Shown here one piece after another: positions 25,985 through 59,101 of a DNA stretch of 64,000 nt. Source of the stretch: Psilocybe azurescens (taxonomy: Eukaryota; Basidiomycota; Agaricomycetes; Agaricales; Agrocybaceae); contig JAJIRX010000533.1 of assembly GCA_023853785.1 (NCBI GenBank), positions 1 to 64,000 on the forward strand. Direction: 5' to 3'. Both the position numbers and the translations under genes were made by a program. Numbering within the stretch: position 1 is the first letter of the stretch; the number at the start of each line of letters is the position of its first letter. The notes under the pieces were generated by a model. That model made no database searches. It was not told where the DNA came from and worked only from the letters and a program-made list of their open reading frames with translations.

Positions 25985-26183
25985 ACTCCCTGATGGTGCT
26001 GATAAGACCTTCCCAGCTGGAACTGTCAAAAAGCCTGGGGACAGCCCCATCATTGGTCTACTCCACAAGGGCATGTATGGCCTCAAGCAGGGCGCTTACC
26101 TATGGCATAAACACATGAACAAGGTGTTCTTATCCATTGGATTCGTGCATATAGTCTCAGATCCTTGCATGTACTGCTACCTC
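25985..26183 (+). pseudogene. Copia reverse-transcriptase scrap
   Basis: A short frame reads KTFPAGTVKKPGDSPIIGLL, then HKGMYGLKQGAYLWHKHMNK and SIGFVHIVSDPCMYCYLQ. It contains the copia RT signature (L-x-KGMYGLKQ-A--W) just before the YVDD box, which is missing because the end of E1 begins there. It belongs to neither Copia-A nor Copia-B by sequence. Confidence 0.75.
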
Positions 26184-33112: not shown

Positions 33113-33254
33113 CTGTCCATGGGTATATACCCTAATATGTCGAGATCTGCATAATGGAGTTATACAAATCATGTTAAGAGGGCAGATTATCTGCACTGGT
33201 TCAATACACTTTTGAGAAACATTTTCCAATTTTTGATAGAAAGCACCTTGTTTA
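33113..33254 (-). pseudogene. E4 KDZ gene fragment: CxC5 cysteine cluster
   Basis: The minus strand reads AFYQKLENVSQKCIEPVQII, then CPLNMICITPLCRSRH, the CxC5 pattern seen in E1 as CPITAVCMDVNCQKR. It is cut on the left by the end of E1 and on the right by element A. Confidence 0.8.
33246..33254. repeat. 9-bp target duplication of element A, left copy
   Basis: CCTTGTTTA, repeated exactly at 35630-35638 on the other side of A. The interrupted gene continues across it (LGLTPYKQG joined to AFYQK). Confidence 0.9.
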
Positions 33255-33689
33255 GTGTACTTTACAGTGCCCCCATTTTCCGTTGGACTCCAACGGACTT
33301 TCACCGGACCCAGCCAATTCCAATGGACAGTCCATTGGACGTCCAATGGATTCCGTTGGACTTGACAAAATTCCGGTACCAGTCCGGTCAGAGTCCGGCC
33401 AAATTCGGTCAAAGTCCGGTCAAGTCACTTCAAGACAGAAAACAGGTGGACTGGCCGGACTGTCCAGTCCGTTGGACTTCCGTTGGACTTCCAGTGGACT
33501 TCCACCGGACTCTCAGCACTTAATTAGACCAGATCCAAGAGTGCTCTGTCCAGTGGAGTCCAGTGGATGTCCAGTGGATGTCCAGTGGACTGTCACTGGT
33601 TTAATTGCAGACTTGGGAGGGGAGTTAGGGACAGTAGCAGTGTTCTTGGAAGCTTTGGGAGCCATATTAAGGAAGCTAGGTCACTAGGA

Positions 33690-33905
33690 TAATACTTCAA
33701 TCTTATCTTTAATTCATGTAACAATGTAATATAATATATTGAAAACTATATACTACATTATTATCTGACTTTGTGAATTTCACTAAGTCCAACTTTAAAT
33801 TCACATGGAATGGAATCCAATTGGATTCCAACTGGAATACTTTAATCTTAGCTTAAATTTATGTGACAATGTAATATAATATATTAAAAACTATATACTA
33901 CATGA
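33690..33905. repeat. Direct repeat of about 70 bp inside element A
   Basis: ATACTTCAATCTTATCTTTA... at about 33691-33762 recurs as ATACTTTAATCTTAGCTTAA... at about 33837-33905. The same pair is present in element B (58470-58690). Confidence 0.75.
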
Positions 33906-33999
33906 TTATATACAGGTAAAAAAAAGAAAAACATAATAAAAAAAAACAAAAAAAGAAAAACAGAAAGAAAAGAACGGAAAAAGGGGGCGGAGGGTACAT

Positions 34000-35060
34000 T
34001 GGTGGTGTCGTCGTCCGTGTTATCAACGTTGTCGTCGGCCGTACCCATCGTTGTATGCGTCGGTGTCACCGTCAGGTGTTGTCGTCGACTGTACCCGCCA
34101 TGGTACACGTCGGTATCGTCCGATGCGTGTCGTGGTACAGCGTCGCTGCCGTCGTTGCGTGTCGTGGTCGTCTCCCTGTCGTCCTCGCTGTCGCCCGTGG
34201 TGGTACGTGTCGTTGCGGTCCGTACCCGTTGTGGTACGTGTCGGTGTCGTCGTCCGCTGTGCCTCTCCTGGCACCCGTCGGTCCCTTCATTCGCGGGTCG
34301 TTCGCGGTCTGTACCTGTCGCGGTACGTGTCAGTGTCGTTGTCGTGTCGGTGTCGTCCTCGCCCTTGCTGCCGCGGTCCTCGTCCTCGCCCTGGCCGTTT
34401 CTCGCCCGTCGCCGTCAGCGGCCCTCGTTCTTGCCGTCCTCGTCCTCGCCCCTGGCCGTCCTCGCCCGTCGCCGTCAGCGGTCCTCGTCCTCGTCCTGGC
34501 CGTCCTCGCCGTCGCGGTCCTCGTCCTCGCCGTCGCGGTCCTCGTCCTCGCCCTGGCCGTCCTCGCCGTCACCGTCAGCGGCCCTCGTTCTCGCCGTCCT
34601 CGTCTTTCGCCCCTCGCCCTGGCCGTCCTCGCCGTCAGCGGTCGCAGTCCTCGTTCTCGCGGTCGTCCTCGTCCTCGTCCTGGCCGTCCTGGCCGTCGCT
34701 GTTGCGGTCCTCGTTCTCGCCCTCGCCCTGGCCATCCTCGCCGTCGCCGTCAGCGGCCCTCGTTCTCGCAGTCCTCGCCCTCGCCGTCCTCGTCCTAGCC
34801 CTCACCCCTCGCCCCTCGCCGTCTCTCGCCCTCGCCCTCGCCGTCCTCACCCTCGTCCTCGCGGTCCTCGTCGTGGTCCTCGTCCAGCGTCCTCGTTGTC
34901 GCTGTCGCAGTCGTCCTCGTCGGTGTGGCCGTCAGCGGTCGTTTCTCGTCCTCTGTCGCGTCGGGTTGGCTTTCGCCTGGCTCCGACCGACGAGGCGGTG
35001 GTGGTGGTGGAAGGAAAAAGAGTGGGTGTCGGAATCAACAACGGACCGACGTGGCATCAA
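34000..35060 (-). pseudogene. Element A charged repetitive coding region
   Basis: GC-rich, with many copies of GTCCTCGTCCTCGCC-like units on the plus strand at 34350-34910. On the minus strand these read GEDEDRDGEDGQDEDE or ART-type repeats depending on frame. The position equals the KDNKDG repeat in E1 and the acidic repeat in E4, so it is likely the N-terminal part of a companion gene whose conserved domain has been deleted. Long plus-strand frames here (Ser/Pro/Arg-rich) are most likely shadows. Confidence 0.4.
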
Positions 35061-35638
35061 CATGTCACGCGCACGTTGTTGTTACATTGAGTCATGTGAC
35101 TTCGAATGCGTCACATCGGACCGCTCACCCTGCCGGACTGAACAAAATACAGAATTCTGTTGATAAGGACCACATACACTCAGAAAAATATATCAGTCTA
35201 TTGACTCTACACTCTCTACTGTGTTCTATGTGTGATAACTCTTTAATTGATCTAAGTTTTATTTTTCTATTAATATTTTCTTTTTATTAATACTAATATG
35301 AACAACCCTCTGCTTGCTGTCCGTTGGACTTCCATTGGACTTCCATTGGACTTCCATTGGACTTCTGTTGGTCATGTCCGGTGGGATTCCGATGGACTTC
35401 CGTTGGTCCTGTCTGGTCATTTCCATTGGACTTTGACTGCTGGTTTGGCATTATTCCAGTGGACAGTCCGTTGGACTTGTAGTCCATCGGACATTCACCG
35501 GAATCTCACCGGAATCTCACCGGAAAATTTCAGCTGTCCTAGACCAGAAAAATTGTCATTCTGAATATAGAAAGTCCGACGGAGTCCGACCGGAGTCCGA
35601 CCAAAAAATGGGGGGCCGTGTAAAGACCTCCTTGTTTA

Positions 35639-35741
35639 TAGGGTGTAAGACCAAGAACTTCAGAAAAATTATCAAGCTTTACAGCTAATACAGTTTCCCA
35701 GGCATCAGACATAAATTGGTTTTGTTGAAAAACCATAGAAA
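35639..35741 (-). pseudogene. E4 KDZ gene fragment between A and E3
   Basis: The minus strand reads VFQQNQFMSDAWETVLAVKL and DNFSEVLGLTPYKQGG. E1 has the corresponding LDEFAKLLGFTPY just before its CxC5 cluster. Confidence 0.75.
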
Positions 35742-35990
35742 CACATAGGGCAGCTACATTGTAGCGAGTGACTCGTACCATAGAACGTACACAATGTATA
35801 CGTGTCACTCGGTGCCATAGAATTCTATAGAATACACCTATAGGAAGTAGGACGATCTAACATACAATGTAGCGACTCACTTGGTGCCGTAGAATTCTAC
35901 GTGTATAGGCAATCTGACCTGATATCGGCTGAGGTCACCGATATTGTGAACACGGCCCCGAATATATCGGCTGCAGCCAGCAACAGCGTC
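35742..35990 (+). repeat. E3 left terminal inverted repeat, 249 bp
   Basis: Base-for-base reverse complement of 48462-48710. Contains three related subrepeats of the form ACTC..GGTGCCRTAGAA or ACTCGTACCATAGAA and one TCGGGGCCGT word. Confidence 0.97.
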
Positions 35991-36213
35991 GACTCGGTGC
36001 CGTATTAATCGGCCACATGACATGTCGTGTTCAGCTCAAGATTACATTTGGCTGATGTGTAATAAGATTTACGGTAATATATAGACAATCCAATGTGAGA
36101 AATGATAGTTATGCATCTTCAGCTGAGCATGCAGGTAAGTCATCTCGGCTTCGGCCAATGTTTAAATGAAATTTAATGAATCAATACAGACAAAAAAAGT
36201 ACTATCAAATTAT
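35991..36213. other. E3 left internal non-coding segment
   Basis: AT-rich, no gene. Probably the 3' untranslated region of the gene ending near 36214. Confidence 0.5.
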
Positions 36214-38235
36214 TTATAAAACGAACTCCTCAGTATCATCAGTATCTGCATCCCGTTGTTCATTGTTAGAATCTCTGTCAGCTTCCTCGGCTGGCAGCCA
36301 GGTATCGTCAACAAAATCAAAAAAGTCGGGGTAAAGGGACGAGGAAGTGTAATACGAGATGGAGTAACAGAGTCAACAGCCATATGTACCTGAGCTGCAC
36401 GCTTTGAAGAATCAGCTTGAGAGAGGCTCCGGTCAGATGGAGGTGCAGAAGCAGAATAAGAAGATTGGTCTTCGTCGGAAGAATACCATACCGCAGTAAG
36501 TTCGGCAGGGCCAACTGGAGGGGTAATAGGATTGGGAAGAATGGATGAATATTGTTGTTCAGCCACCGGGCCCGAGCTATTATCGGCACCGCTGTCCGAT
36601 GAGTTCGACCAAACAGCCGCTGCGTCTGTTGCACCAACTGATGCCGAAATATTTAGATTTTCATCAGATAAAACATGACGAACTGCCTCTATAGACGTGA
36701 CCGAGTTGGGATCGGCGCCATCAGAGGCAAGATCTTCATCACAAGATATGGCCCAGGCACCTTCAAGGTCGTTAGGGCGAGTATGAAAATTGTGTTGGGG
36801 GAAGGGGAGGACACTTCCGGAGATGAGTCCCGTAGCCAGAGTTCGGCCACTTAAGCGCCGCTATGGAAAGGGTGGATTTGTTGATGCTTCGTCGGTAGAT
36901 AAAGCATCGGCAGGAATAAAATTGTCATCTTCATCTTCATCAGAGAGGGAATTCCACGCTGCAGCTGCTTCTGCAGCTGTAGAGACAAAACCGAGAGTTG
37001 GGCCCGATTGATCATCAATGCCGATCGCTGGGTGGTGAGTGATCGGCCCGAAAATGAATTGTCAATGGTTACAGAACCCAAATGAGCCAATTGACGGTCA
37101 CGCTGAGAGTTTCTGCTGTCCTCCATGTTGTATTGCGAACGGTGGGCAACGGAGCGGTAATATCAGGGACAGAATGAATGGCAACGTGGTCGGTAGATTC
37201 GGCCCCGACGCATGATGGAACCAAGGCCGCATTCATAGCTGTACTCGGTGACCGACGACCGATTGGCAAATTGTCCAGGGCTTCAGCATAGACTGCTGCA
37301 TTGGGTCGTCTGTGTGAACCTGATGCCGATCGCTTGGCTGCTTCATCGGCCGGCATTGTATTGCTCATTTCTGCTTGAGCGGTAGTCGAAAGGGCTTTCA
37401 GTTCATTTCTGAGTTTTTGGATAAGATCTAGATTATTTTGACATTGGCCACACTGTTCGACCAATCCCGCCCGGTTGGTCAGACGGGACCGATGCGGCAG
37501 GCGGCGTAGTCGGGACCGATGCGGCAGGCGGTGTAGTCGGGACCGATGCGGCAGGCGGTGTAGTCGGGACCGACGCGGCAGCCGGCATAGTCGGGACCGA
37601 TGCAGCAGGCGGCGTAGTCGGGACCGATGCAGCAGGCGGTGTAGTTGGTACTGAGTCGGTCTGTCGGTCGGGTAATATGTCGGCCACAATTTCGCGCAAG
37701 CCACTTGCATGGGTTTTCAAGGCTTCTTTAATTAGCAGGCCATTCAGCGTATACTTGATGTCCACCTCGTCGTCACTGTTCCACCAATCGTTCAAGTAAT
37801 TGTCCACCAACCGAACCGGACTTTCCTTATCTACACCAGCATTCAACAACTGACAAAAATTATCAGATAACTTCAGTGGAAATTGTCCAACTCTGAGGCC
37901 CAGAGTGGACGCTGACAATGACTGAAGAATAATGGGGATGGTGATGGGCAGACCGAGGGCAGAGGCCTGGCCCACAAAAAATAAAATCACTTCCTAAACA
38001 GGGATCGAATAAGCTATATTGTCCATTAGAAACAGCTGTTACAGACCACTTCAGTGAATAAAAAGTGTTGTTTCCACGCTTGTTGTTCTTCTGTTGACAC
38101 AGCAATAGCAAGAAGTGCGGCCCGAAATCGGGACTCGGCATAGTACACTAGTGCCTGTATATCGATATCCGATGAATGTTGGACCCCGGCCAGTGTGGTG
38201 AGAGGGTTGAAGACTGAGATTTCTTTGTTAAACAT
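36214..38235 (-). CDS. E3 gene 1: acidic Ser/Pro-rich hypothetical protein with a 9-residue repeat
   Basis: The start at 38235 (MFNKEISVFNPLTTLAGVQH) is only about 67 bp from the transposase stop region. The next coherent piece, up to 37960, reads GQFPLKLSDNFCQLLNAG and DWWNSDDEVDIKYTLNGLLI. Then come six copies of SVPTTPPAA, a coil-like QNNLDLIQKLRNELKAL, Ser-rich sequence and an acidic end (DDTWLPAEEADRDSNNEQRD, then EEFVL) with TAA near 36214. Frame changes are introns or indels. I recognise no family. An accessory role in transposition is inference from its position inside the element. Confidence 0.5.
37475..37655. repeat. 27-bp coding minisatellite in E3 gene 1
   Basis: Six copies of a 27-bp unit around GTCGGGACCGATGCGGCAGG, encoding SVPTTPPAA on the minus strand. 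Confidence 0.9.
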
Positions 38236-38301
38236 GATGGATTGTATCTAAAGAGTTATCTATATAGATAATCAATTTGATCGTAACATTGATTTACATA
38301 A

Positions 38302-41300
38302 TCAGACGATCGGAGATACGTAATGATGTGTACTATTTTTGAATGCAGCATCGGCCGCCAACGCATACTTGTTCCACAAAGTACTTTGCCGATGAGCATA
38401 AGCTTTCGGGCCCGCATTCACACCCTCCATGTTAGTTGCGTTGGCCCACTCTTCACGGCGATGAATGAAATACCTGACCGTCCATTGCATTTCATAAACA
38501 ACCAGAATAACTTCTTCATGCCATCTATTCTTGTGAGCTCGTGCGCTGAGCCAATGAATCCTGTTAACTACATGATTGATATTAAAAGCATTTTAATATT
38601 TGATATAGAGCGAGCACGTACATTCTTGGTGAAATTGCGGTGAGTCAGGCCCGATTGGCCGAGTAATGTCCGCATCGGCGCCGAGCCCAAACAAATACTG
38701 GCGGCCGGTCCTCCAAATCCATGACAACTCCATCGTAGTCGATCCCCTCAAATTAGGTTTCCAAATGATGGTGCTGGCCTTCAAATCATTATGGGTAAGT
38801 TCGCGGGAAAATAGCAAGAAATTCTGCATCGCGGTCGAGGGGCAACGGTCGGGACCGACAGGTTGAGTAAATGCGAGCGTGCAAAACTTTCTCATAACTG
38901 AGTAATTTTACTCTTTTCTGTCCGTTTGATCGAATGTTGGTGCGGTTCCCTTTTCCAATCACATATCTATACAAAAATGAGATGTCGGCCACAACGTCCC
39001 GAATGCGTGTGATTTGATTACGAGCTTGTTGTTTTCTTAACTCCAATTCCAAAGGAGCATATTCCTCAGGTACATTAAAATTGGAAGGCAGCGGAAGCAT
39101 CTGGCGTTCAACAAACATAATAGTTGGCGTATGCTGGCCGTGAACGAATTCGGGGTTGTCATTCGCATTCGGCTGAACGGCCGGTCCGCTCTGGACCTGA
39201 GGATCGTCCTACGGCAATGTCGTCGAATTCGGCCTCATTGCTGCACTGGATATGTTGCATCCTACCCATGATATCTGGCACTCCAGAAATCTGCTGTTGC
39301 AATTTAAGTTCCGCAATCATTGAAGTCAGGACTTCACGAAGTTGGTTCACTGCTTGTTGGTCTTGATCACGCGGTAATGAGCCAAGCCGTCGTACTTTGT
39401 TCTGTATATCAATTCTACACAAATTTAAAGAAATTATAGCAAGGTGTAGACGAAAAATTGCTTACTGCTTTTCTTCGATTGTCATGGCTAACCGAAGCCA
39501 GGTCTGAACTGCATTTTCGGTGCCGTCATCGGTGCCGACTATGTCGGCCCCTGTGTTGGTCATGGGATCGGGCACTCGGGCACCATAAATATCCATTCGT
39601 TGAATGTCGGCCAGCCGCATTGCTTCAACACTTTGTATTTCATCCTCCCATTCATTCAGTGTCGCCCTCGCAATATCTCCTGATATTTCAAGAAAGTAAG
39701 CATCTGCGCGGCCGACCATGACAATTGCATCCATGTATTTAGTAGACAGAACTTTTGTCATTCCTAGCATTTTTTATAATTTGAATCCGTTGCGTGATCA
39801 TCAAGCACTTCTTCAGCGGTGGGCCAGACTTGCTGTACGGACTGAGGTAGAGATTGCATTGAGGCTCGACCAGAGTGATTCAAGAATTTGTCCGGCCACT
39901 ATGGCTGCTCCAGGAATGAATGTTGATGCGAAACGAAAGAAACAAACGTCTTTGTGGCCATGAATATGAAAAAGATCGATAGCTTTATCAATAATAAGAC
40001 CGGCTGGAAGCAAATGGCCGATTCTATCAAAAAGATGAACAATCCATGCGCAGACAATATCGTAGATCACGAGTAGGCCTTGTTCAGGTGCAACATGTGT
40101 TGATTTTATTGCCTGCAGTAGTGCAAAATCAATATTTTTTGCTGTTCACCTCGGAACAAGTCGGCCAAGGAATTCGGGCGCAAAGCAGCCATGCCGAGCA
40201 CATGCGAAAGCAACTTTCCCTGTTCTATCACATGCCTTTGTTGCAAGTAATGCATTCGTAATTGCTTTGAACGTGTTTTCACAAGGTGCTTTCTGAACAT
40301 ATGCCAAAATCAGACACGGCCCCAACATCGGCCCCCGAACAGCACATACCGTTACTCGTTCGATCGCTGACGCTAAAAATTGTTGATAATTATCCGGCGT
40401 TTGGCGCCATCCCAGCTCCATTTATTAACCAGATATCATCGTTACACTTCTGCCGGACATGGTCGGCTTTGAAATTTCCATCGGTCACAACAATACGTTT
40501 GTATACGGTTCTAGGTGCGTGATAGATTAACTTTAGACTTACATAATGTGTGTAATATACTAACCGATTAGGATCTTCTTTCCAATTGGTGGGCAGGTTT
40601 ATACCAGGTTGAGGGCATGTCGGGCAATATAAAGATAATGTTCCGTCTGGTGGGGTTTTCGGATCTTCGGTTTTGTGGCCATACCCGGCCCATCTCAATT
40701 TTTGAGCCACCTCCAAAGTCGAGACATGCGGCGGAATTCGTGGTAAACATTGACAATTTCAGTCCGGCCGATCGGGCGTCGTCATTCTGCGAATCAGTTG
40801 ATAAAATTGGTATGCAGATGCCTTCAATTCCAAGTTACATAGACGAAAATGGTCCATGAGTTGAACAGAAAATAATGTTCGTATCTTGGTAAAGCTGGCT
40901 GGGAGCAGCCGACAAGCAACTAAGTCCATCGGGACCGATTGTTCGCCTCGGCAATAGCATGTGACCATGGCCATGTGATGAATGCCGTTGGTGTGTAAAA
41001 TTCGCACGTATGTGTTGTTTAAACCATCGGCGACTGGTGCACTTGGTTGAGTTGATTTTGTGTCGTTTTCATTCTGATAGCTGACATCCTCATTTCCTGA
41101 AACTTCATCGGCTCGGCCATTACCTTGGGCATCTGGTTCCAAATAGTGACCAAAACCCTCTACATCGGCCTCTGGATCATCTCCGTCGTCATCTTCTGCT
41201 GCTTGTTCATTGACTATGCTGTCACCCTCCATATCCTGGCTTCCACAGCACTCACTTAAGAAATGCAGTGGATGCGCACTGTTCTTTGTGTTGGGCTCGT

Positions 41301-42119
41301 ACATAGTACTTGGGTCGTCATAGGCCGATGGCGGCGGGGCCGACATGTCGGCCGATTCAGATATGTTGGTCGGCCGCAGAGTGGCTGAACCCTGCGCTAT
41401 GTCTAATGCCTCCTGTTCTCGTTGATCCGAATGTTCCTGAAGGGATTCCAAATAAGTAATTTGGAACTGAAGTGAGTTGCATGTGGCCTGCCCAGAACGA
41501 TGAGGGACAAAGATATAACAGCCGACTTCCCATAACTCGGCTCGGCGGAAATGTGTTTGTGCCCAACATTCAATTCTATGAAAAGGGGCAACCTGGTGGG
41601 AATGTCGCATGCATTTGCGGCAGATTGGCTCTCCTAATGTGCAATCAATGCATCTCCATATAGCCCAGGAATCTGTCGAACAGGATTGGCAATGCTGTTT
41701 ATTGGATGGCCACGTCTCTCGAATAAGTGTTGCTTGAAGCAGGTCGTCTACTCGGTCGACCCATTCTGTCATATATTCTTGCTGTGTCTGTCAAGATTTG
41801 TTGGAGCATTGTATTGACATATGTGACCACCCATTACCTTGCTTTTCTTTTTGCGTGGTATTTCAAAAGGTTCCGAGAATACTCCACTGTCGTCATAAAT
41901 ATTTTGGTTGGCCATATGTTCTCTGTTATTAGTTGGGTCATTTGACATGCCATCTTCTGGAACAGTGTTGATGAGTGGAACTAAAACTCGTCGTTGGGTT
42001 CTGGGACCACTGAAGACATTGGAGCGGTGTGTAACTCCTTGAGTGGCCTCGACACTTCCTTGAACCAGATGTTTCGACTTCCTTTGCCTTTTGTGGGCAG
42101 GCCCACTTGAAGAGTTCAT
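38302..42119 (-). CDS. E3 KDZ transposase with CxC2 cysteine cluster
   Basis: The start at 42119 (MNSSSGPAHKRQRKSKH) gives a basic N-terminus. CxC2 near 41450-41720: CQSCSTDSWAIWRCIDC, ICRKCMRHSHQVAPFHRIE and then HTNGIHHMAMVTCYCRG. Transposase core: CPTCPQPGINLP, first Asp in VVTDGNFKADH, the CARHG segment, second Asp in VIYDIVCAW, FHIHGHKDVCFFRFAS, and Glu in GQILESLWSSLN. The C-terminal part has a helical LPSNFNVPEEYAPLELELRK region, ELSWIW and EMQWTVRYFIHRREEW, ending at 38302. Introns are clear, for example 40511-40564 and GTATGT..TTCAG near 40300. Breaks at T5 (about 40701) and T6 (about 40138) are one base short in homopolymers. Cut-and-paste DDE enzyme. A functional copy may exist if those indels are errors. 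Confidence 0.88.
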
Positions 42120-42307
42120 GGTTGAAAGGAGAGTGTGCGAAACACATGGACGCTTCGGTCCAAACTAAGAAACATGAGGTTTGCACGAGGCTTATTGTCA
42201 CTGCTCCGAGTCTGGCAAATTCTGCTTGATTCCTAATCATCCCCACTTCACTGTGTCATCTGTGCTTATCTATTCTCTGATTTTGAAAGATAACTTCTTA
42301 CTACAAC
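42120..42307. promoter_or_regulatory. Divergent promoter region between E3 transposase and partner gene
   Basis: Only 188 bp separate the two opposite ATGs (42119 minus, 42308 plus), so the two genes probably share control elements. No sharp TATA box was identified. Confidence 0.5.
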
Positions 42308-44635
42308 ATGGCAGCACCAATCGTATTACAGTCCAAGAAACGCAAGCCAAAGATGTTCAGTGCGGATGAACTCGAACATATCTTGCCTTTCAAAGTGACA
42401 TTTGTGAAAGCTAGGACAGTCAAAGAACGTCTCTCGATCTTAACCAATCACATATTGGTGGCAATATTCAATTATTGGGCAAGTCAGGGTAAACGAGCAA
42501 AGGATGACACTGAGAGTCGACGTTGGACACAAGTAGGGCCATATAAACAAATTCATGGAGTGTGTGCTTATAGTAGCGCAGGAAATCATTACCTGGTGCT
42601 CAAACAATTGGCGGGCAGAACGAGGCATTGCACGCAAATCCAACCACTTTCGTCCTAAACGACCTGATATCCTGTGGCATAATCATCAGCCGAAGATTTG
42701 GGCAGAAATAGCCAGTATTATGGGAATCAATAACGCTTCGGCCAACACAATTGGTTGGTTTGGCCACAGGACAATGGCTATGAAAAATGTTTGGACCAGC
42801 ATGACTGACGACGAACGCAAGGCCATTGATGAGGAAGTAGAATCATGCGGAATGCAAGGTTATGATGAACACACACAGGCAAGGTTAGTGATTTAGCACC
42901 ACTTCTACGTCTGAGCTAAATAAATATATCTAAGTTTGGCAAAAAATACCATGTCAGGAGAATTGATCAATCGATGAGAGACCATTATAAAGAGATGGGC
43001 ATGACAAGCATTATTTTTGTCTGCTTCCCAATGGCTGATGGTAAGATGGCTGTGGACGGGTAGTGTTTTCTCATCGGTCGAGCATAGGTCGGCCCCGATG
43101 ATATTATATATCGGCCACAACATTTTTATGTCGGGGCTGTTATTTTATGTATCGGCCTCAACGTTGATATTTCGGGGCCGATAGTATTGTTCGGCTGGCA
43201 CCTAGTTGCTATTTATCGCACAAAACTGATCGCAAATGGTAGATATGAGCAAATTCGCGCACTTGATGGGTGTGCCTGCCCCTTCGTTCATGAGTATATA
43301 TCAGGCCGACGTCGACCGAATGAAACAAAATGTATTGGATTATATGACCGGCTTACAGAATCTCAAGAAAAACCCTCACCTAGCATTCACTGTGAACCGA
43401 GCAACGGAGAAGAAGCCCATATTTACTTTCGGAAAAACTTCTGATGGCTTTCCAATCTTGCCAGTGCCATTGCAAGACAATAATTGGACAAAGGCGGACT
43501 GGGAAGAGGCATTCAGCTTGTATATTAATTATCATTACCGTCAGTACTTTCAACTACCTTGTCGGGTCAGACATATCTTACAGAAGGTGCAGAACTCGGA
43601 ACAGGTGGCCTTACCGATAAAGTACCATACACTGATATATCAAATGCTCAGGCCACCTTCATTGATGCGAAATATTTGCCACCCAATATGAAGTTCACGA
43701 ACCCCAGGAACCTTCATAAAGAGGACATACAAGCCTTTTTCACACATTTGGTGAACAGACAACAACTATATCAACCGAAAGATACATTTCGATTCAAATC
43801 TATTAAGCGCAAAAATGGACTGGGGGCAACAAAATATCCCGATGAAGCAGAGGCCGATCTCGGTCGACGTAAAAGAAAAAACAAAGGTACAAATAAAAGA
43901 ACAAATCATGTCCAAATAATCGAGGAAGGAAGTCAACATATCGATCAACCTATTATCATTAACGAGACAGCACTTGTTGAACATACACACCCGACACCGA
44001 ATGTAATATCGGGGCCGACGGGCAATGAAGCCCACCCGATATCTATCAATCATGAAGGTACCATTCAATCTATCATCACTCCAACGATAATTTCTTTAAT
44101 ATCAGCCTCGATAGATTGTGAACCACGACCATTATCTTCCAGTTTCGTCCAGCAAAAACACGGAGAAATTCAAATCAATTCGCAAATTTTCAGTGCTGCG
44201 AGCATGCCAAGCCACATATATGTTACGTAGGATATAATGGAATCCATTGTTCCTGCTGGTGTTAAACACCCATTTCCTGCTAACGGTCCGGCAGATGGTA
44301 TGCCAGTTTTCCCAGTCGAGTCAACTCAATATGCAGAGTATGTAAAGCAAAGAAGATATGAAAATGCGATTTCAGATCCTCCAAACACCAATCCACCACC
44401 AATGCATACCATTGATCCCCAGCTGCTGGCTCCAATCATGCCAACTCCGCGTGCATCACCGATCCCGGGGCCGACCGCTGGGCTGACAGATGCAAATGCA
44501 GTACCATTGCATTCTCCAATTTCGATAACCAAATCGAAAAAACTTAAAGAACGAAGGAAACAAGGTGTTGATGATGTCGCATCATCGTCAACTTCGCTAT
44601 CAACAATACCTACAGTTCGACCGAAGTTTGCGTAA
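42308..44635 (+). CDS. E3 gene 3: partner protein divergent to the transposase, unnamed family
   Basis: ATG at 42308 (MAAPIVLQSKKRKPKMFSAD; basic start). Coding pieces in order: KDDTESRRWTQ, ITWCSNNWRAERGIARKSNH, RPDILWHNHQPKIWAEIASI, WFGHRTMAMKNVWTSMTDDE (to 42890), YHVRRIDQSMRDHYKEMGMT (42930-43060), then after an intron MVDMSKFAHLMGVPAPSFMS and FTFGKTSDGFPILPVPLQDN (43236-43540), IDAKYLPPNMKFTNPRNLHK and RFKSIKRKNGLGA (to about 43830), a Lys/Arg-rich NLS-like RRKRKNKGTNKRTN, and a Ser/Thr/Pro tail. 44237-44632 (MESIVPAGVKHPFP) may be the last exon or a separate small frame. The family is common in Agaricomycete genomes but has no name I can give. Linkage to KDZ suggests an accessory factor. 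Confidence 0.6.
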
Positions 44636-44764
44636 CAAATAGTCGGCCCCGAACTACGTATCTTCAAAATTGTGAATACTTTGCGTCACAAATGAAATAT
44701 ATACTTTGCATCACAAATGAAATATATACATGTGTCTGGTGAAAGGTATATAAATTTAACAAAA

Positions 44765-47485
44765 CTACTCCTGGCGATGTCTCTTCCTTTTCCCCCCTTC
44801 AGCCGAAATATCATCGAGATGACGTTTGCTAGGTGTGGGACTACGAGACACTGATTGTGATCGGCCGGGCGATGCAAGACGTGGGCGACCTACGTGGCGT
44901 GAGTGGTTCGTGGTCTGTCGCAGACGGGGGAGCAAGAAGTGATGTCGAAGTTTGAAATGGATTAGATGTTGCCGAATGTAGAACAGCGGAGCCGATATGG
45001 ACTGGCCCCGATATCGGTGACGTATCATTGACCGATGTCGGCTTGAATTCCTGAGATAAGCGGGACCCCAATGGTCGCGAACTGCTGAGGAAAGACATGT
45101 CGTCGCATCCGATGTACCTTGAGGAGTGGCTGCAACAATAACCGTTGTGCCGTATGCAGCTTGCTCCTGTGAATTATTTGGTGTTGGGGGAATTAATTGT
45201 ACTGTCGGAATAACACATTTACGAACCGATGAGCCAGCTGGAATATCTTGCATGGCACCATCATTGTCCACCTGAATATCGTCGATCGCATCGGGGTAAT
45301 TTGTGGAGCAATTATGATTCGGAGCCGATAATACAGTGTCGGCCGCACATGTAATGGTGACAGGGGACGTGCACTCGGCACTGTGGGACTGTATTAATGT
45401 AGTGGCCGATGCAATGGCGGCCACAGACGTCGGGCCCGAAAGCATTGTGGTGGCTTTGCTTTCGAGGTTCGGGGCCGGTAAGGATATGGTGGCCGATTCA
45501 TTGTCGGCCGTAGACGATGTCGGGCCCGAAATAGCGACGGGGATGTGCATCGAACATTTTCGGCTGGTGCTGATGTGGTGGCCAATATGTGGTCGGCCGC
45601 AGATGCTGTCGTAGACATTTGCATGCTGGGTGGAATGTATGGAATAGTCGGGGCCGATGTTAATAAGCCCGCAGACGCCACGACCTCTGATCTATTGTCG
45701 GGAGCCGTCACAGCTGACATAGTTTCCGCCCCGCCAGTCGTGAATCGCCACGTTGCTCACAGAACCGTGAGTTTCTACTGCTACAGACGCTGAACCATCA
45801 GTTATATTTTCTTCAAACATAAATAATGTCGGCTCCGGTGCACGTCAGCTTCGATGCATCGTAGATGGCGTTTGGACGTAACTGTTGAAGAATCCCAGCA
45901 ATGTCAGCATATCGTTCTTCTAAGCGTTTGAAATTTTCAAGAATATCATCCATCTTCCCTTCCAACCGAAGTCACACGGTGACCGAGACCAGCGTTCGGT
46001 CCGTGGGCTGATGCTTGCTCCAACTGATGGCATGACTCGTTACAGTCGTATGCCATAGATAGAGCCGTTGATGCGTCGGCTGCTACAGTGAGAAGGGTCG
46101 ATTCCACGGGCGTCGACAGCGGGCACATAATTCTTCATCTGCGTCGTCGGCCTGTATTTCTAACGAGCATGAGACAGTTAACATAATGTAATGAATAGCA
46201 GATATGAAATATAATACCACGAGATTTTCCTTTTCCAATGCTGAGAGGCGTGGAACACGAGCTTCATCTGAAGTAGCCGATTCGATACGTCGGGGCCGAC
46301 TCGATGTGATTGCCCGGCGTACGGCTCGGCCGCTGACGATTCGGCCACTTGCTGTTTCGGAACCGGTGGTTGGTTTGATGTATGTATATCGTCATCACTT
46401 TCGTAGTCTTCTTCAGGCTCAGTCGATGGTTCATCGCTGGATTCAACGATTGGCTTTGATTTCAGTTTTATTTTCGTAGTCGCCGATTTTGTTCTTTCAT
46501 GCTGAAGGTATCCTCCAGGTCCGAGACTGCACTTCACTTTGAATTTACTACACCGCCAGCATGCGCCAGCGCCCGTTAGCCCGATCGTAGCACTCTGCGT
46601 CGGCCTTACGGCAGCGGTCACACGCTGCATTGTTCAACCTTCCGGCTACAGGCACAGGGGCGGCCCTTCGTGTCGTCGTTCGGTTCAGATTGATCAATGT
46701 GGGCTGGTGGACGAGGTGCGTTGCTATCTGCACTCGATTCGCGTCTCCGATGTTCCTTCTGGTGTGCGCCGATGTTCCGGTCTCGCTTATGCGACTTGAC
46801 GGCCCCGATTTCGGCGATACGTGTCGTCCCCGCGTCCGTGGCTCTCTCATCTTTGTAGACAATCCTTTTGGAAGCACATATAAATTTTCTGTGCTGACCT
46901 GCTGGGCGCGCTCCCCGACCACAATGACTTCTTCAGCCGACTTTGATCGGTATCGTGAACGGCCGATGTCGAATACGCTTTGTGTTCTCAGCTCCTGTTG
47001 GTTGCTGTTCGATAGCGAGTGGGTTGCTAATCTGTGCTGGCTTCAATGATGCCTCGATGTTTTTCTTCGCGCTGCTTTGTACTTCTGTAATGACGGGCGG
47101 TGAAAATATCGGCCCTGATACCACATTGTCGAATGTCGCCCAAATTTTGTCGATGTTTCATGAGAAATTCAGCAGTGCGACCTCCCTGCTTGACTTCTTT
47201 CCAAGCTTTCAAAAAACCCCAGAAGAACATGGGGGTGTTGAATGCCGGCTTAAGATGAGCAACCTCGGGACCGGTCAAGGCGTGCAAAGCAAATATCTGA
47301 TTCTGAATTCGCTCATCGTCAGATAATACAGATATTGATATTTTGTTACTCACCAACTGCGCCTTAAGTGCCTTAATTTCTTTTGCTATATCGCCATCGG
47401 TCAGTGCGCCTCGGATACGATTATCGACGTTGCGAAGCGCGTTCAAAAATTCGGCTGCAGAAGGTATATTCATAGAGATTGACAT
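44765..47485 (-). CDS. E3 gene 4: cysteine-cluster nuclear protein
   Basis: Start at 47485 (MSISMNIPSAAEFLNALRNV). The N-terminal 110 residues look globular (NTPMFFWGFLKAWKEVKQGG). The middle has two Cys groups in adjoining frames, AACDRCRKADAECYDR and then ACWRCSKFKVKCS, resembling the C..C......C + C..C...K.KC arrangement of basidiomycete zinc-cluster proteins. An acidic DEPSTEPEEDYESDDD segment follows. The end (44765-45550) is Ser/Pro/Arg-rich with PSKRHLDDISAEGGKRKRHR as a nuclear signal. Breaks between frames may be introns or indels. DNA binding is inferred from the Cys pattern and the basic tail. Confidence 0.5.
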
Positions 47486-48461
47486 GGTATTTAAGTTTGG
47501 ATGTGAAATTGTGTTTAGGATATGGATGCTCGGGAGCGACTCGGCAGATGAAGTTCGTAGATGATAGCAAAGAATTCCAATTTTGCGGTGCTAGCGAAAT
47601 CAACCATCATGTGATACAAATTGTCACACGTGACGATTAAATTTAGTTACAACCTTATCCAATTCAATCTTTTGGAACATATCATATTGATATCGCTAAC
47701 TGCATCGACAACACATGAATAATCTGACTGAATATATCTTTTATGTCCAATGTTGCAAGGCCGGCTTCACTTGAGCCAACAATCAATACAATTCCAAGAC
47801 CCGCTCATCGGCCCCGGCCATATTTTTAATCGCCACACATACAACTAAGCGGGCCCGATTATCAAGAAATATATGTTCCTGAATTCCAGGTAGCGATCAC
47901 ACAAAAAGAAATCCACATTACACACCGCCGGGCAGAGCTCCATTTTGACAAAAACATGTTGGGGTACGTGCTATTTCAGTAAAGTTCGGTCGTTAGTTGC
48001 ACATGCTATGGCCAATGACACCTGAACATCGGCCACGTCGGCCAGCTATTTCGGGGCCGAGACTACGACTATCGGCCATGTGTATTGGGGCCGGTGATGG
48101 CTGTAGTCGCATTGGGCCGCCGTTTTCGGGGCCGTTTGACACTTGGTTACACACATCGGGCCGATGTAGCTTACCGCTTCGTTTAGCGTCAGCTGCGCTC
48201 TTCCACTCAAACGATGCACCCTTTCAGACCTCCCACGTCTATTGTCTTCGCTAATAGCTTATTAAAGTATTTGGCTTACTTATTCTGCAGTCAAGCAATA
48301 GTAGGTCTGAGAATTCTCGGGGCCGAGCTGATGCATTACCTGCAATATGCGTGTCTTCATATTCAGGTACTGCAATCGTCAACTTAGTTTGCCTGCATTG
48401 TATTATAATAGCGAACTAACATATTGCCGAATAGGATCATTACTAAACATCGGGCCAACTG
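47486..48461. other. E3 right internal non-coding region with TCGGGGCCGA words
   Basis: No gene seen. Two exact TCGGGGCCGA words (48051, 48317) and several one-off variants. Probably upstream control sequence of gene 4 and subterminal binding region. Confidence 0.55.
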
Positions 48462-48710
48462 GACGCTGTTGCTGGCTGCAGCCGATATATTCGGGGCCGT
48501 GTTCACAATATCGGTGACCTCAGCCGATATCAGGTCAGATTGCCTATACACGTAGAATTCTACGGCACCAAGTGAGTCGCTACATTGTATGTTAGATCGT
48601 CCTACTTCCTATAGGTGTATTCTATAGAATTCTATGGCACCGAGTGACACGTATACATTGTGTACGTTCTATGGTACGAGTCACTCGCTACAATGTAGCT
48701 GCCCTATGTG
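48462..48710 (-). repeat. E3 right terminal inverted repeat, 249 bp
   Basis: Identical in inverse orientation to 35742-35990. Followed by target duplication ATAGAAA at 48711-48717. Confidence 0.97.
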
Positions 48711-49041
48711 ATAGAAAGACCAGTATCAAGTCGATTTTTTAATGCACGACTCAAAGTCTTCATCCAACTTGTAGCAATTATGCACTTTTCATCCTGTAAA
48801 CTTGGATGCTTTTGGCGAGCATGTAAATTAAGCAAGTCTGGATTTTCTACTAGAGAAAAAAGACTAGCAGCACAGTTTCCAAAGAAATATCTGGATTAAA
48901 TGTTGTTGACACAAAATTGCTAAAAGCCAAAAATGTAATATTAGGAAATGGTGTTGTTGGTCCTGATGCTGATACACCAGGAAGATATGCAAGACAGATA
49001 AGCAGCCAGAATAGAGGAAGTAGAGGTGATATAGCCATCAA
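48711..49041 (-). pseudogene. E4 KDZ gene, N-terminal part
   Basis: Start at 49041 with a hydrophobic N-terminus (MMAISPLLPLFWLLICLAYL). FLAFSNFVSTTFNPDISLET, NPDLLNLHARQKHPSLQDEK and TSWMKTLSRALKNRL match the E1 protein (NIFSEFIGQTFGPNISLATV, NPELLTLHARQQNPVFSDER, TGWMKSLSRAVLQR). It is cut by E3 at 48711 and resumes at 35741. The frame changes once near 48855. Confidence 0.85.
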
Positions 49042-49137
49042 GTAGATTGTTATAAAAGATCTGAAAAATCACAGTATACAAACAGTTAGATTTTAAAACA
49101 TTTAAAAGTACATTGCATATATTTATATTCTTCCTAC

Positions 49138-51320
49138 TTACTGCTCAGATTGCTTCTTCTTCTTCTTCTTCTTTGACTTCTCCTGCTCAGATGTATCCTT
49201 TGATGAACTTGCTCTGACCTTTTCCTCAACAGCAACAACTTTTTCCTTCTTTAGCATCTTTCCATCATTATCCATCCATTCCTGTAAATTTTTCAAAGTA
49301 TACCTTGCATCATCACCCCAGAGCTCTACTGCTGTCATGCTATCAGAATCCCCATTAAGCCACTTGCTCATCTTGGGAAAATACTGAGCAGCCCTTTTAA
49401 AAGTTGGACGCCACATGTTACTCCATTGACTCTTCCCAATGAAAAGCTCGATGACTTGCTTCTCAGTTGGTGGTCTGTCAGGCCACTTTGAGATTTTAGC
49501 CATCTGGTCAAGAGCAGCACTAACAGCACAATAGCGACAATACTGGCCAGGAAGGTCTTTGGGTGGATGCTGACGTGTCAGATCCATTGAAACCTTGAGA
49601 ACAGAAGCAAGGGTGGACTCATAAGGAGTGAATGGTTTACAAGAAATAGTTTCTTCAGCAGCAGTGGTGTTGATGTTACTGGTTTCAACCTCACCAGATG
49701 TTGATATAGATAGTGAAGGAGAGCGAGTGTGGACCAGAACACTGTGTGGCATGACAGAACGAGAGATAGGTGGAAGAGATGCAGCCTGAAGAGATCGAGC
49801 ATGTGATGGCACAATAGAAGAAAAAGAAATCGAAGGCTCAAAAGAGCTCTATAGCATTGAATTAGTAATATTTAGCATGCTGAGCTTGTTATATAATACT
49901 CACACAAAGAATATGAAGAGTTTGTTTACCATTATGAACTTTGAATGAAATTTCATCATTGGATTCCACTGCATTATTGTAGAAACCCTTCATGTCCCAA
50001 AGTTCATCTATAGCATCCCAGATAAGAATATGATTTTCTAAATATAGTCAGATAGAAATTTAAATTAGTATGTATTATGAAAAACTGACTGGTGATTGGT
50101 TCAAAAGACTAGCAACATTTTGCAAAACTGGCTCTAAGTTTTTGTTGACAGTAACAGGAACCCGCATGCTAGGCCTCATTTTTGTTGCCTGAAGCTGAGA
50201 AGGATCCAAAACAGATGAATACAAAAGAACAAAGCCCTTTACTTTGTTGAAAATAGGTGAAAAATGAAGATCTTCATCATCAACTGGATTATAAGTCAAT
50301 CCAACTGCTCGGCCTCAAAAATGCCACCTGTAGCCCGAGAAGAACCTTCAGGACGAGGTGGGCTTTCCATAGTGGCATCTGTTTATAATTAAATAATTAA
50401 TTAAAATAAGTATAAATATAAACACCAACCTTCATCAGAAAGCTTGTTTTCAGATGTTTTCTGCTCCTCTGAACTGATAGCAACTGGAGCAGAAATATCT
50501 GGAGCAGGCAAAGACATTGCAGTGGTTGAGACGAGAGGAGTAGGAGCATCACTGATGCTTGGGGCAGCAGCAGACAGAGTTGTAGCTTCAGCATTGATAG
50601 CTGCAGTTCCAGTACCACCAGTTGAAGAAATAGCAGTCAGAAGAGACTCAATTGTAGAGACTGGTGCTGAACGCCGAGGAGGTGCAACTGAATCATCTCC
50701 TTCTGCCAGAACTTTTAAAGTGCTTAAAATATTTTAATATATATATATAAACAAAGAACAAAAACAAACTCACTGAGTCTGTTTCCTAATCCGCTTAGCT
50801 TCCTCAGCTTCAACAGCTGCATTTTTCTCTGCAGTTGTCCTACGCTGTTTTGATCTGAAAATAAAGTTAGAAATAAATTAAAATATAGTCAATAACTTCT
50901 TACTTCTTGACCTCTTTCTTCAAAGTTGCTTTCCTCCCTCTTCTCCCCCTTTCCTCAACTTATCAACCACCATCTCCTCCAGATCTGGTAACCCTGCTCC
51001 ATCCCCCCCCTCCTCCCCCTCCTCCTCCTCCTCCCCCTCCTCCTTCTCCCCTTCCTCCCTGTCCTCCTTCTCCCCTTTCTCCCCTTCCTCCCCTCCTCCT
51101 TCTCCCCTTCCTCCCCTTCCTCCCCCTCCTCCCCCCCCTCCTCTCCCTCTCCTCCTTCCTTCTCCTTCTCTAGATCTGTCTTGGCTGCCCTGTTTGAACC
51201 AGACCTTAATCTCTTCTTAGCAGTCTGAGCAGCACTAGACCCTTGCCTCTTCCTGCTATTAGAAGCAACAGCAGAACCAGCAGGTGTAGCTTTGGTGGTA
51301 GACCTAGTAGTAGCAGGCAT
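49138..51320 (-). CDS. E4 companion gene
   Basis: The start at 51320 (MPATTRSTTKATPAGSAVAS) is followed by basic SRKRQGSSAAQTAKKRLRS and a Glu/Gly/Lys repeat (EGGEEGEEGEEGEKEEG). Further exons: KQRRTTAEKNAAVEAEEAKR (about 50770-50860), Ser/Thr/Ala-rich 50400-50720, YNPVDDEDLHFSPIFNKVKG (50100-50290), HILIWDAIDELWDMKGFYNN (about 49930-50040), and the last exon 49138-49812 with FIGKSQWSNMWRPTFKRAA, YFPKMSKWLNGD, LKNLQEWMDNDG and a Lys-rich tail. The stop lies 97 bp before the KDZ gene start, mirroring E1. One base is missing in the A3 run near 50929. No named domain. A nuclear accessory protein is my inference. Confidence 0.6.
50995..51175. repeat. Polypyrimidine coding microsatellite in E4 companion gene
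   Basis: Tandem CCTCCTTCTCCCCTTCCTCC-type units on the plus strand, encoding EGE/RKGR-type repeats on the minus strand. Confidence 0.8.
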
Positions 51321-55620: not shown

Positions 55621-56000
55621 TAAATAGTGTTATCAATACAAAACATATAGCAAATTTTTTTGGGGGCAGCATCATGTCAGTCGATTGAAGGGGCAAAAGA
55701 GCTCATACACCAAGCAAGAGCAGCTCTCTGCTGGCAACCTCCAGCCTTTCCAACTTCTTTTGGAGGTCTGCTCTTTTGTCAGCGACTTGAGGACTCTCCT
55801 GCACCAGCTCCTTGCAGATCTGATGGCCATCCTGCCCATTGATCCCAAGGCTGGTGTACAGCACCACGAGAACATCCTGCTTGATACCAAACAAGGTCAA
55901 GGTCAATAGTGAGAGGTACATTGTCCGTAAACTGCTTGTATGCAACTAAGAAGATGAGTTAGTTAGTAAGTTAAATGATAGATATCACACCATACCTTGA

Positions 56001-56453
56001 AAATATGTTACGATCTCAAGTTAGAATCACGCAGTATGCATAATCTAACCACCAATCGTTTACAAGAACAGGTTCGAGTTCAAGTTGAGCAGGTAAAGCA
56101 GGTTGGATTCTCAAAAACTAGCTAAAGAATACAGTAGATGCTTCCTCGTATAAATACTATGAACTGTACAGCTAGTTGAAACGAGATCAAATGTTCATCA
56201 ACAGATGTATATAAGAATAAGAGAAACAGATTGAGTTGAAACAAGTTTGAATGTTCATCAGCAGATGTATATAAGAATAAGAGAAACAGATCAATTGTTC
56301 ATCAAAAGATGTATCATAAAAGAAGGAAGTGAAAGTAAAGTTCATCAGAGCGTACAATGATGTATCAATGATGTGAAAGATGACAAAGAAAAGGAAAAGA
56401 AAAGAAAAGAAAAGAGAAAAGAAAAAGAAAAAAGGACTTGTTGTAACAAAATA
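56001..56453. repeat. Target duplication AAATA flanking the solo LTR
   Basis: AAATA at 56001-56005 and 56449-56453 brackets the LTR at 56006-56448. It proves insertion into the dynamin exon. Confidence 0.9.
56006..56448 (-). mobile_element. Solo LTR of the Gypsy-2 family
   Basis: 443 bp, TGTTAC..GTAACA, inverted and clearly similar to the Gypsy-2 LTR at 60307-60751 (shared GTATAAATACTATGAACTGT box and the AACTAGCTAAAG start region). No internal sequence is present, so it arose by LTR-LTR recombination. Confidence 0.93.
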
Positions 56454-56977
56454 TGCCCTGATGTCTGCCATGATATTTAACACAGGTTCCATAGGATTGG
56501 GTGGAAGTAGTTTGGCTAAGTCATGGGCTTGTACTCCGCCAAAGCCAGCTTTGGCCAAACCAGCTAAAGCTTTGGCAATACCTGTTGGTTGTGCAATAGG
56601 AAGGTTCTTTGATGCGGAACTGAATGTTGTCAGAGGAACTTTATACTCATGAATGGCATTCACGACATCCAGCTCCTCGTATTTTTGCGCACACTCTTAT
56701 AGTGGGAGAGAAACTTAGCACGAGATAATGGGTGTTCAACGAAAAGGGAGATCTTCAAGCTTCATAAGCCAGATGATGTGCTTTTCTATGCATTTGAGAC
56801 ACTTTTTCAGATGTTGCTGCATGATGGTCCTACAGAGCAGTCAAAATGTGAGTCTCAAAATTGGCTATGAAGGCTGATAATTATTATTTAACACTTGCCT
56901 GACATGCTGTTCAAGGTATCCCTGTCCAAATTTGCTGAAATGTTTCTTGATAAGACCTTTGATATGCTTGGAGATGG

Positions 56978-59101
56978 AGGTCTTTACACGGCCCCCTATT
57001 TTTTGGTCGGACTCCATTGAACTCGGGCATTGGAGAATGCCGAACACAAGCAGGATAAACCAACTGAGCCACAAAGGCTTATGGAAAATTATAAAATTAG
57101 TTAAATACATAGTGATGCGGCTGAAATTCTCGGCACTGCTCGGCACAGGACAAACAACAACATGCACGTGACATATTGATGCCATGTCAGTCTGTTGTTG
57201 ATTCCGACCCCAACCCTTTTCCTTCCACCACCACCACTGCCTTGTCAGTCGGAGCCAGGCAAGAGCCAACCCAACGCGACAGAGGACAAAAATGACTGTG
57301 ACAGCCACACCGGCGAGGGACGAGGACGGGGATGACTGCGACAGTGACAACAAGGATGCGGACGAGGATGCGGATGAGGACCACGACAAGGACCGCGAGG
57401 GCAAGGGCAAGGGCAAGGGCAAGGACCACAAGGGACTGCAAGGACAACGGCTAGGACCACAACCACAACCACAACAGTGAGGACCAAGACACCAGCGTGG
57501 ACCAGGACAAGGGCAAGGACGGCAGCAAGAGCAAGGACAGCAGTGAGGGCAAGGACAACAGCAAGGGCAAGGACAACAGCAAGGGCAAGTACGGTGGCGA
57601 GGGATGAGGACGGCCGGCAAGGACGAGGATGACGGCGAGGGCAAGTACAGCAGCGGGGACGAGGACGATGGCGAGGGCAAGTACAGCAGCGAGGACAAGT
57701 ACAGCGGCGAGGACAAGGATGGCGGCGAGGACATGGACGGCGGCGGGGACAAGGACAACAGCGAGGGCGAATACGGCAGCAAGGACAAGTATCGGCAGCA
57801 AGGACAAGTACGGCAGCAAGGACAAGTACGGCAGCAAGGACAAGTACAGCAGCAAGGACAAGTACAGCGGCAAGGACGAGGGCGTGGACGGCAAGGAGCG
57901 AGGACATGGACGGCAAGGACGAGGATGTGGACGCCGAGGGCGTGGATGTGGACAGCAAGGACGAGGACAACCCGCAATGACAGCACCGACGGATACCACC
58001 ATGGTGACAACAACACACGACAACAACACTGACACGACAATGACACCGACACGATGACAACACCGACACAGACCGCGACAACCTGTGACAAAGGGACCGA
58101 CAGGTGCCAGGAGAGGCACAGCGGACGATGACACTGACACGTACTACAACGGGTACGGACTGCGATGACACGTACCACCACAGTGACAGCAAGGACGACA
58201 GGGAGACAACCATGACATGCGACGATGGCAGCGGCGCATACCACGACATGTACGGATGACACCAACACGTACCACGGCGGGTACGGTCAACAACAACACC
58301 TGACGGCGACACCGACACATACAACAATGGGTACGGCTGACCACGACGTTGATAACATGGACAACGGCACCACCAATGTACCCTCCGCCCCCTTTTTCTG
58401 TTCTTTCTTTCTGTTTTTTCTTTTTTTGTTTCTTTTTTATTATGTTTTTATTTTATTTTTACCTGTATATAATCATGTAGTATATAGTTTTTAATATATT
58501 ATATTACATTGTCACATAAATTTAAGCTAAGATTAAAGTATTCCAGTTGGAATCCAATTGGATTCCATTCCATGTGAATTTAAAGTTGGACTTAGTGAAA
58601 TTCACAAAGTCAGATAATAATGTAGTATATAGTTTTCAATATATTATATTACATTGTTACATGAATTAAAGATAAGATTGAAGTATTATCCTAGTGACCT
58701 AGCTTCCTTAATATGGCTCCCAAAGCTTCCAAGAACATTGCTACTGTCCCTAACTCCCCTCCCAAGTCTGCAATTAAACCAGTGACAGTCCACTGGACAT
58801 CCACTGGACATCCACTGGACTCCACTGGACAGAGCACTCTTGGATCTGGTCTAATTAAGTGCTGAGAGTCCAGTGGAAGTCCAGTGGAAGTCCAATGGAA
58901 GTCCAACGGACTGGACAGTCTGGCCAGTCCACCTGTTTTCTGTCTTGAAGTGACTTGACCGGACTTTGACCAGAATTTGGCCGGACTCTGACTGGACTGG
59001 TACCAGAATTTTTTCAAGTCCAACGGAATCCATTGGAATTCGCTGGGTCCGGTGAAAGTCCATTGGAGTCCAACAGAAAATGGGGGCACTGTAAAGTACA
59101 C
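56978..59101. mobile_element. Element B: inverted copy of element A
   Basis: Ends AGGTCTTTACACGGCCCC and GGGGCACTGTAAAGTACAC are the reverse complements of the ends of A. The inside matches A in inverse order: TIR-proximal GGACTCC repeats, charged GC-rich block (57230-58370), the about 70-bp direct-repeat pair, and GGAATCCAATTGGATTCC near 58550. It is 2,124 bp against 2,375 bp; at least part of the difference lies in the repetitive block. The flanks are unrelated (dynamin left, Helitron right) and give no 9-bp duplication. Confidence 0.85.
57300..57960 (+). repeat. Charged coding minisatellite in element B
   Basis: Repeats of AGGACAAGTACGGCAGCA and GACGAGGACG-type units on the plus strand (gene sense), giving DEDGDD, GKGKGKD and SKDKYG peptides. 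Corresponds to 34000-34910 in A with a different repeat composition. Confidence 0.7.

Follow-up and report, generated by a model that had tools for sequence, protein, structure and literature searches.

A stretch of about 13 kb in the genome of Psilocybe azurescens raises the question of whether it is a single mobile element that carries four genes as a unit and, if so, what the three genes beside the transposase gene contribute. The window analyzed here is the first 64 kb of contig C454, in a genome of 70.4 Mb and 937 contigs. The original prediction, made from the letters of the window, described a complete and recently moved KDZ transposon with four gene regions, inserted into a gene.

Results

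Ends of the element

End-to-end comparison delimited an element of 12,969 bp (window 35742-48710) between terminal inverted repeats (TIRs) of 249 bp with no mismatch, ending exactly where predicted; on extension, the match was 256 nt at 99%. The predicted 7-bp duplication, ATAGAAA, was also found at both sides (Table 1), and the termini are of the form 5'-CA..TG-3' (CACATAGGG...CCCTATGTG). The original prediction had itself considered that the repeats might be an assembly duplication. Because related TIRs occur on many other contigs, and other copies are flanked by 7-bp duplications of different sequence, neither this nor chance accounts for them. The ends, the target-site duplication (TSD) and the other copies with their own TSDs thus bear out a delimited, single mobile unit.

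Table 1. Features of the element and its insertion site (window positions)
Feature	Position	Strand	Basis or remark
CxC5/CxC6 repeat, left remainder	35630..35741	-	Comparison with uninterrupted copies; further piece at 33115-33254
TSD, left copy (ATAGAAA)	35735..35741	.	Directly outside left end; single copy at uninterrupted sites
Left TIR, 249 bp, begins CACATAGGGCAGC	35742..35990	+	TIR comparison and genome copies
Three iterated motifs, left TIR, GTRCCATAGAA type	35775..35894	+	TIR positions 34, 71 and 143
g4, acidic repeat protein	36213..38235	-	Protein comparison
g1, KDZ transposase with CxC2 cluster	38302..42119	-	Approximate spliced model; frames interrupted in window copy
g2, divergently transcribed partner	42308..44635	+	Gene model and homologues
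g3, Zn2Cys6 zinc-cluster protein	44765..47485	-	Conserved N-terminal part; coiled-coil-like region (by eye)
Right TIR, 249 bp	48462..48710	-	TIR comparison and genome copies
Three iterated motifs, right TIR, mirror of left	48558..48677	-	Motif table and perfect TIR
TSD, right copy (ATAGAAA)	48711..48717	.	Directly outside right end
CxC5/CxC6 repeat, right remainder	48718..50400	-	Extent is the reach of fetched copies

The four genes

All four predicted gene regions are present, with exon limits that are approximate. The prediction of a KDZ transposon with a CxC2 transposase was confirmed with a hand-joined model of g1, in which the KDZ domain (PF18758) scored 95.7 bits (4.2e-27; cut-off 26.6) and the CxC2 cluster (PF18803) 62.8 bits (3.9e-17; cut-off 27). 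A six-frame search without a model gave 97.9 bits for the KDZ domain at C454:39813-40295, and CxC2 was detected on one open frame at 6.9e-18. The protein holds the segments VTDGNFKADH, IYDIVCAW and ILESLW, which we take to contain the D, D and E catalytic residues, respectively.

The partner g2 may hold HMG-like and GTF2I-like domains, as predicted for a homologue from a weak structural match of its low-confidence structure. In g3, the cluster spacing CX2CX6CX9CX2CX6C is present in one frame in five of the six relatives spanning the region, C863 being the one where it was not found, and Pfam Zn_clus exceeded its cut-off of 21 bits in one of the two relatives tested (25.2 bits in C154, 14.5 bits in C194); the window copy has the two cluster halves in separate frames. 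By eye, g4 has a conserved N-terminal part, PTTPPAASV repeats and then acidic motifs of the type A.VW.SSDED, and there was no convincing Pfam match. Relatives in protein databases (three for g2, two for g3 and two for g4) came from Psilocybe cyanescens, Gymnopilus dilepis and Amanita muscaria. PDB sequence searches with g2, g3 and g4 returned nothing useful.

Other copies in the genome

A TIR search found at least 40 related places, all of the best 40 of 114 candidates having matched when scored. A search with the outer 23 bp that allowed at most two mismatches gave 111 ends (60 forward and 51 reverse; about 100 places were listed individually), and the reversed pattern, used as a control, gave none. 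Among 16 two-ended intervals examined, 11 (3/6 and 8/10 in two sets) have an exact 7-bp TSD, all of different sequence, and C136b has one with a single mismatch; no 7-bp TSD was found at C781, C202, C792 and C278 (4/16). The length of the TIR depends on the subfamily: it is 131-132 bp in C33, C92, C529 and C447, 249 bp in the window copy and at least 297 bp in C323 and C136b, from which 300 bp per end was fetched. The outer 91 bp are common to the subfamilies at 81-89% identity.

We rejected TIR identity as an insertion clock: in cut-and-paste movement neither end is made as a copy of the other, and copies with TSDs still in place have TIR identities anywhere from about 88% to 100%.

Two family derivatives, C440:104427-114987 (10.6 kb) and C202:35369-37516 (2.1 kb), lie at the same genomic site on two contigs with flanks of 91-92% identity, which suggests that a segmental duplication, or the presence of two haplotypes, was followed by internal deletion. 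At C792:357649-371760, two family ends, whose TIRs agree at 97% over the 400 bp compared, enclose 14.1 kb, in which none of g1-g4 was found and around which there is no 7-bp TSD; the unit is large and either non-autonomous or composite. Remains of a second, diverged family element (g2 and g3 fragments and one TIR) lie outside the window at C454:75115-90093, about 26-41 kb downstream of the element.

The gene set and its selection

The genome was searched with the four gene models (the best 42 of 336 candidates were scored for g1, 70 of 170 for g2, 77 of 77 for g3 and 75 of 154 for g4), and the matches were grouped by hand into 55 loci. All four genes are present at 15 of the 55, in all 15 in the order g4- g1- g2+ g3-, so that the extra genes, as the original prediction needed, do recur. 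Nine of the 15 lie between paired family ends (C454, C154, C440, C33, C92, C529, C447, C323 and C136b), eight of these with an exact 7-bp TSD; extra DNA is contained in C447 (21.8 kb), C323 (16.7 kb) and C136b (15.6 kb). The 40 partial loci have two or three genes (21 loci) or one (19 loci), several of them ending at contig ends, and as grouped they showed no break in the order. Four single-g4 loci are distant matches (29-34% identity). Exceptions to the shared gene content are C792, C202, with only a g3 fragment between its family ends, and C781 (2705-13039), with only g4 by protein search and the 3' part of g1 by DNA. Between subfamilies, g2 is only about 65% identical. The characteristic set g1-g4 travels together.

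Parts of all four genes are under purifying selection. Against relatives of about 80% DNA identity, dN/dS in the true frame was 0.18-0.24 for g1 (four relatives), 0.22-0.39 for g2 (three), 0.20-0.21 for the N-terminus and 0.24-0.27 for the C-terminus of g3 (three each), and 0.23-0.25 for the N-terminus and 0.39-0.46 for the acidic part of g4 (four each), whereas the values for shifted frames, used as controls, were mostly close to 1 or higher (0.57-2.99). The middle of g3 (46625-47027) is little constrained, with values, taken without a frame control, of 0.61-0.92 against C154, C440, C19 and C863, and evolution is faster in g4 and towards the C-terminus of g2. Between close copies, the frame-specific constraint is largely gone (C154-C440, window-C932, window-C339 and the g3 C-terminus of window-C194); it persists in g1 of window-C194 (0.21). 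Our reading is that active lineages stay functional while individual copies decay.

A motif array in the TIRs

Motifs of the GTGCCATAGAA type are present at all three places of the TIR in 20 of the 23 ends tabulated, the two identical window TIRs being entered once. Their positions are exactly 34, 71 and 143 in 16 ends, one or two motifs, the second or third, are shifted by 1-5 bp in four (C440 right, C307 25077, C339 and C335), and three ends have two of the three motifs (C549 38678, C16 and C152). Taken within the TIR by itself, the motifs resemble one another modestly (best 36-mer match 24, against a maximum of 22 in 60 single-base shuffles); the stronger support for an array is that their positions are conserved across ends. 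The arrangement looks like an array of candidate binding sites. In the outer 30 bp of the TIR, the commonest base reaches 96-99% over 24 ends, an alignment that omits the C932 and C324 ends, whose outermost bases did not align.

The insertion site

The original prediction held that the interrupted gene reads on across the insertion. A frame is indeed open once the flanks are joined; however, the interrupted gene is one copy of a high-copy CxC5/CxC6 repeat and not a unique gene. For the joined flanks, a genome search gave at least 33 counterparts without the insertion, at 93-99% (best 40 of 240 candidates scored), and the empty sites sought were thus found: the three that were aligned (L033-L035) are 98.6-98.8% identical to the window flanks and have a single ATAGAAA, the pre-insertion site. 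L034 codes for CxC5 (1.9e-25) and CxC6 (3.1e-9) in frames adjoining the interrupted one. The copy C154 is likewise inserted in a repeat, a different one, of which at least 40 uninterrupted places were found at 94-98% (best 40 of 132 candidates scored). As for an allelic empty site, the 2.5 kb at 56000-58500 had no second full-length match among the best 40 of 1032 candidates scored, and thus no second haplotype was seen there.

The CxC5/CxC6 repeat hit by the window element also contains an insertion of another repeat, of 2,375 bp (window 33255-35629), flanked by a 9-bp duplication, CCTTGTTTA (33246-33254 and 35630-35638). A stretch within C792 357649-371760 is similar to the TCCATTGGACT-type repeats of this insertion.

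Age and condition of the window copy

The observed/expected CpG ratio of the window copy, 1.03, is the highest of 11 copies, although the lengths compared differ; the ten others have 0.10-0.98, C307 being nearest, and the window flanks 0.61-0.62. The high ratio fits little exposure to methylation-driven decay, and the spread from 0.10 to 1.03 is what methylation of inserted copies, with loss of CpG as they age, would be expected to produce. Of the predicted recent movement, it stands that the copy is young relative to the others compared, with the least CpG decay of 11, but the identity of its TIRs does not date a cut-and-paste insertion.

Over about 6,950 bases of approximate exons, 15 frame-breaking indels are private to the window copy; each of the ten other copies, all with fewer bases covered, has 1-9. 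Some of those counted may fall at exon edges, and the count omits 46548-46624 between the g3 exons, which holds part of the zinc cluster. Per base, the rate is not extreme (2.2 per kb in the window copy, 2.2 in C194, 3.9 in C307, 3.1 in C863, 2.7 in C932 and 1.1 in C154). In the KDZ catalytic region, the window copy carries one indel that none of the five relatives aligned over this region has. Another, in g3, is common to the nearest copy, C194, and thus probably real. The element is therefore complete, as predicted, in its ends and gene set but not in its reading frames as assembled. Fifteen such indels probably mean that the window copy as assembled is non-autonomous or else contains errors of assembly. 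Neither g1 nor g3 is likely to be made from it at full length, and it would have to rely on proteins supplied by other copies.

TET/JBP genes

No TET/JBP gene (PF12851) was found in the element or on contig C454. The genome has 15 TET/JBP places, none of them on the contigs of the 55 tabulated loci, and at least 170 KDZ-domain matches (best 150 of 256 candidates scored). On the contigs C547, C827 and C580, TET places and KDZ matches occur together, and C580 also has a family-like TIR at 26179-26347.

Discussion

We conclude, with a probability of roughly 0.85, that the window element is a copy of a large cut-and-paste KDZ family with the set g1-g4, whose proteins would have the roles proposed below, and that it was inserted in a CxC5/CxC6 repeat. 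One might suppose that this copy is intact and that its private indels are errors of sequencing or assembly: it is the youngest by CpG and yet has 15 such indels, many of them single-base insertions, and in the adjacent target repeat, too, four of 1,618 columns hold indels private to the window, as compared with 11 substitutions. We think this rather unlikely, since the 249-bp TIRs agree perfectly, the per-base rate is like that of several other copies, a ratio of 15 indels to 97 private substitutions is not extreme, and the g3 indel common to C194 is probably real. It is far harder to believe that the insertion is old and immobile and that gene conversion recently homogenised its TIRs. Although TIR identity in a cut-and-paste element is not set by transposition, and varies from about 88% to 100% among copies with TSDs, the 7-bp duplication is perfect, CpG decay is absent and the host repeat copy is itself 98.6-98.8% identical to three siblings.

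In the mechanism that we propose for this family, the g1 transposase, with its D, D and E motifs, would pair both TIRs, excise the element and join it to a 7-bp staggered cut. The three motifs of each TIR would be docking sites for element proteins, most likely the zinc-binding N-terminus of g1 and/or g3; g2 would help as an architectural DNA-binding partner, and g4 would regulate. The original prediction put forward g2-g4 as candidate transposition or targeting factors; their predicted anatomy favours DNA binding or regulation. A doubtful extension is an obligate four-protein apparatus, in which g1 would need a Zn2Cys6 reader of the three-motif array, a DNA-bending partner of the HMG/GTF2I type and an acidic regulator. 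Alternatively, g2, g3 and g4 could be passengers, kept for another benefit to the element or host such as the anti-silencing proposed for TET/JBP in other KDZ elements, and we think this less likely than not. Diverse fungal transposons capture TET/JBP genes, according to the accessible part of one survey (Kojima 2025, PMC12730594), so that non-machinery cargo is normal, and the faster evolution of g4 and of the C-terminal part of g2 would agree with this. However, all 15 four-gene loci agree in gene order and orientation, across subfamilies in which g2 is only about 65% identical, and all four genes show selection. Cargo of the TET kind was not found either (0 of the 15 TET/JBP places on contigs of the 55 loci), although on C580 one TET place lies 6.5 kb outside a family-like TIR.

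Among known KDZ elements, Kyakuja of Laccaria and other Agaricomycetes has 7-bp duplications and 5'-CA..TG-3' termini in the available portion of its description (Kojima 2025, PMC12730594), and the window family shares both as well as the KDZ transposase. The same portion presents Kyakuja-1_LB and Kyakuja-2_LB of Laccaria as lacking TIRs and carrying a TET/JBP gene (PMC12730594), whereas the window element has 249-bp TIRs, no TET match and three other genes, and six other four-gene elements also have TIRs, of 131 to at least 297 bp. By this description of ends and TSD, the window element is a KDZ element that resembles Kyakuja; we do not name it Kyakuja because, although the 7-bp TSD and CA..TG ends match, the Laccaria families are described without TIRs. 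In form, the nearest published delimited element, to judge from the accessible sections of the report, is Cryptococcus KDZ1 (about 11 kb, 241-bp TIRs and 8-bp duplications; PMC12810828). KDZ1, KDZ2 and KDZ3 are KDZ elements of about 9-11 kb with 139-241-bp TIRs that were caught moving, but they have CxC1 and not CxC2 and duplications of 8 bp (KDZ1) or 4-8 bp, and those sections mention no four-gene set (PMC12810828). In Pleurotus ostreatus, a CxC2 region precedes KDZ, as in the window, and CxC5/CxC6 form a separate high-copy repeat of the kind interrupted here; in contrast, the accessible text mentions no TIR, duplication or accessory-gene set (PMC7641404). Zisupton and Dileera have an 8-bp duplication, against 7 bp in the window family. 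CACTA/En-Spm, MULE and PIF/Harbinger elements with a second protein combine subterminal motif arrays with an element-encoded DNA-binding partner, and their transposases are unrelated to KDZ and their duplications of different lengths. The likeness of the window family to these elements in motif arrays and DNA-binding partner may be one of working principle.

The original prediction called such a KDZ unit rarely delimited. As far as the available portions of the reports go, delimited KDZ elements have already been published (Cryptococcus KDZ1, PMC12810828), as have TIR motifs of Marasmius KDZ elements (PMC8290104); the four-gene set, on the other hand, was not found in the open-licence literature searched. 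As far as that literature shows, what is new is that four genes stay together under selection, one of them for a Zn2Cys6 protein, in an element whose long TIRs bear a motif array. Part of the accessory gene set may reportedly be described in the KDZ paper of Iyer et al. (2014).

KDZ elements are abundant in mushroom genomes, and we found little in the open-licence literature on the machinery of their transposition. If the obligate four-protein apparatus were true, it would be, as far as we know, the first multi-subunit KDZ machinery, and a fungal zinc-cluster regulator would have been captured as a factor that recognizes the termini. With clean ends, uninterrupted sites and a selected four-gene set, this family makes testable which proteins KDZ transposition needs and what reads the termini.
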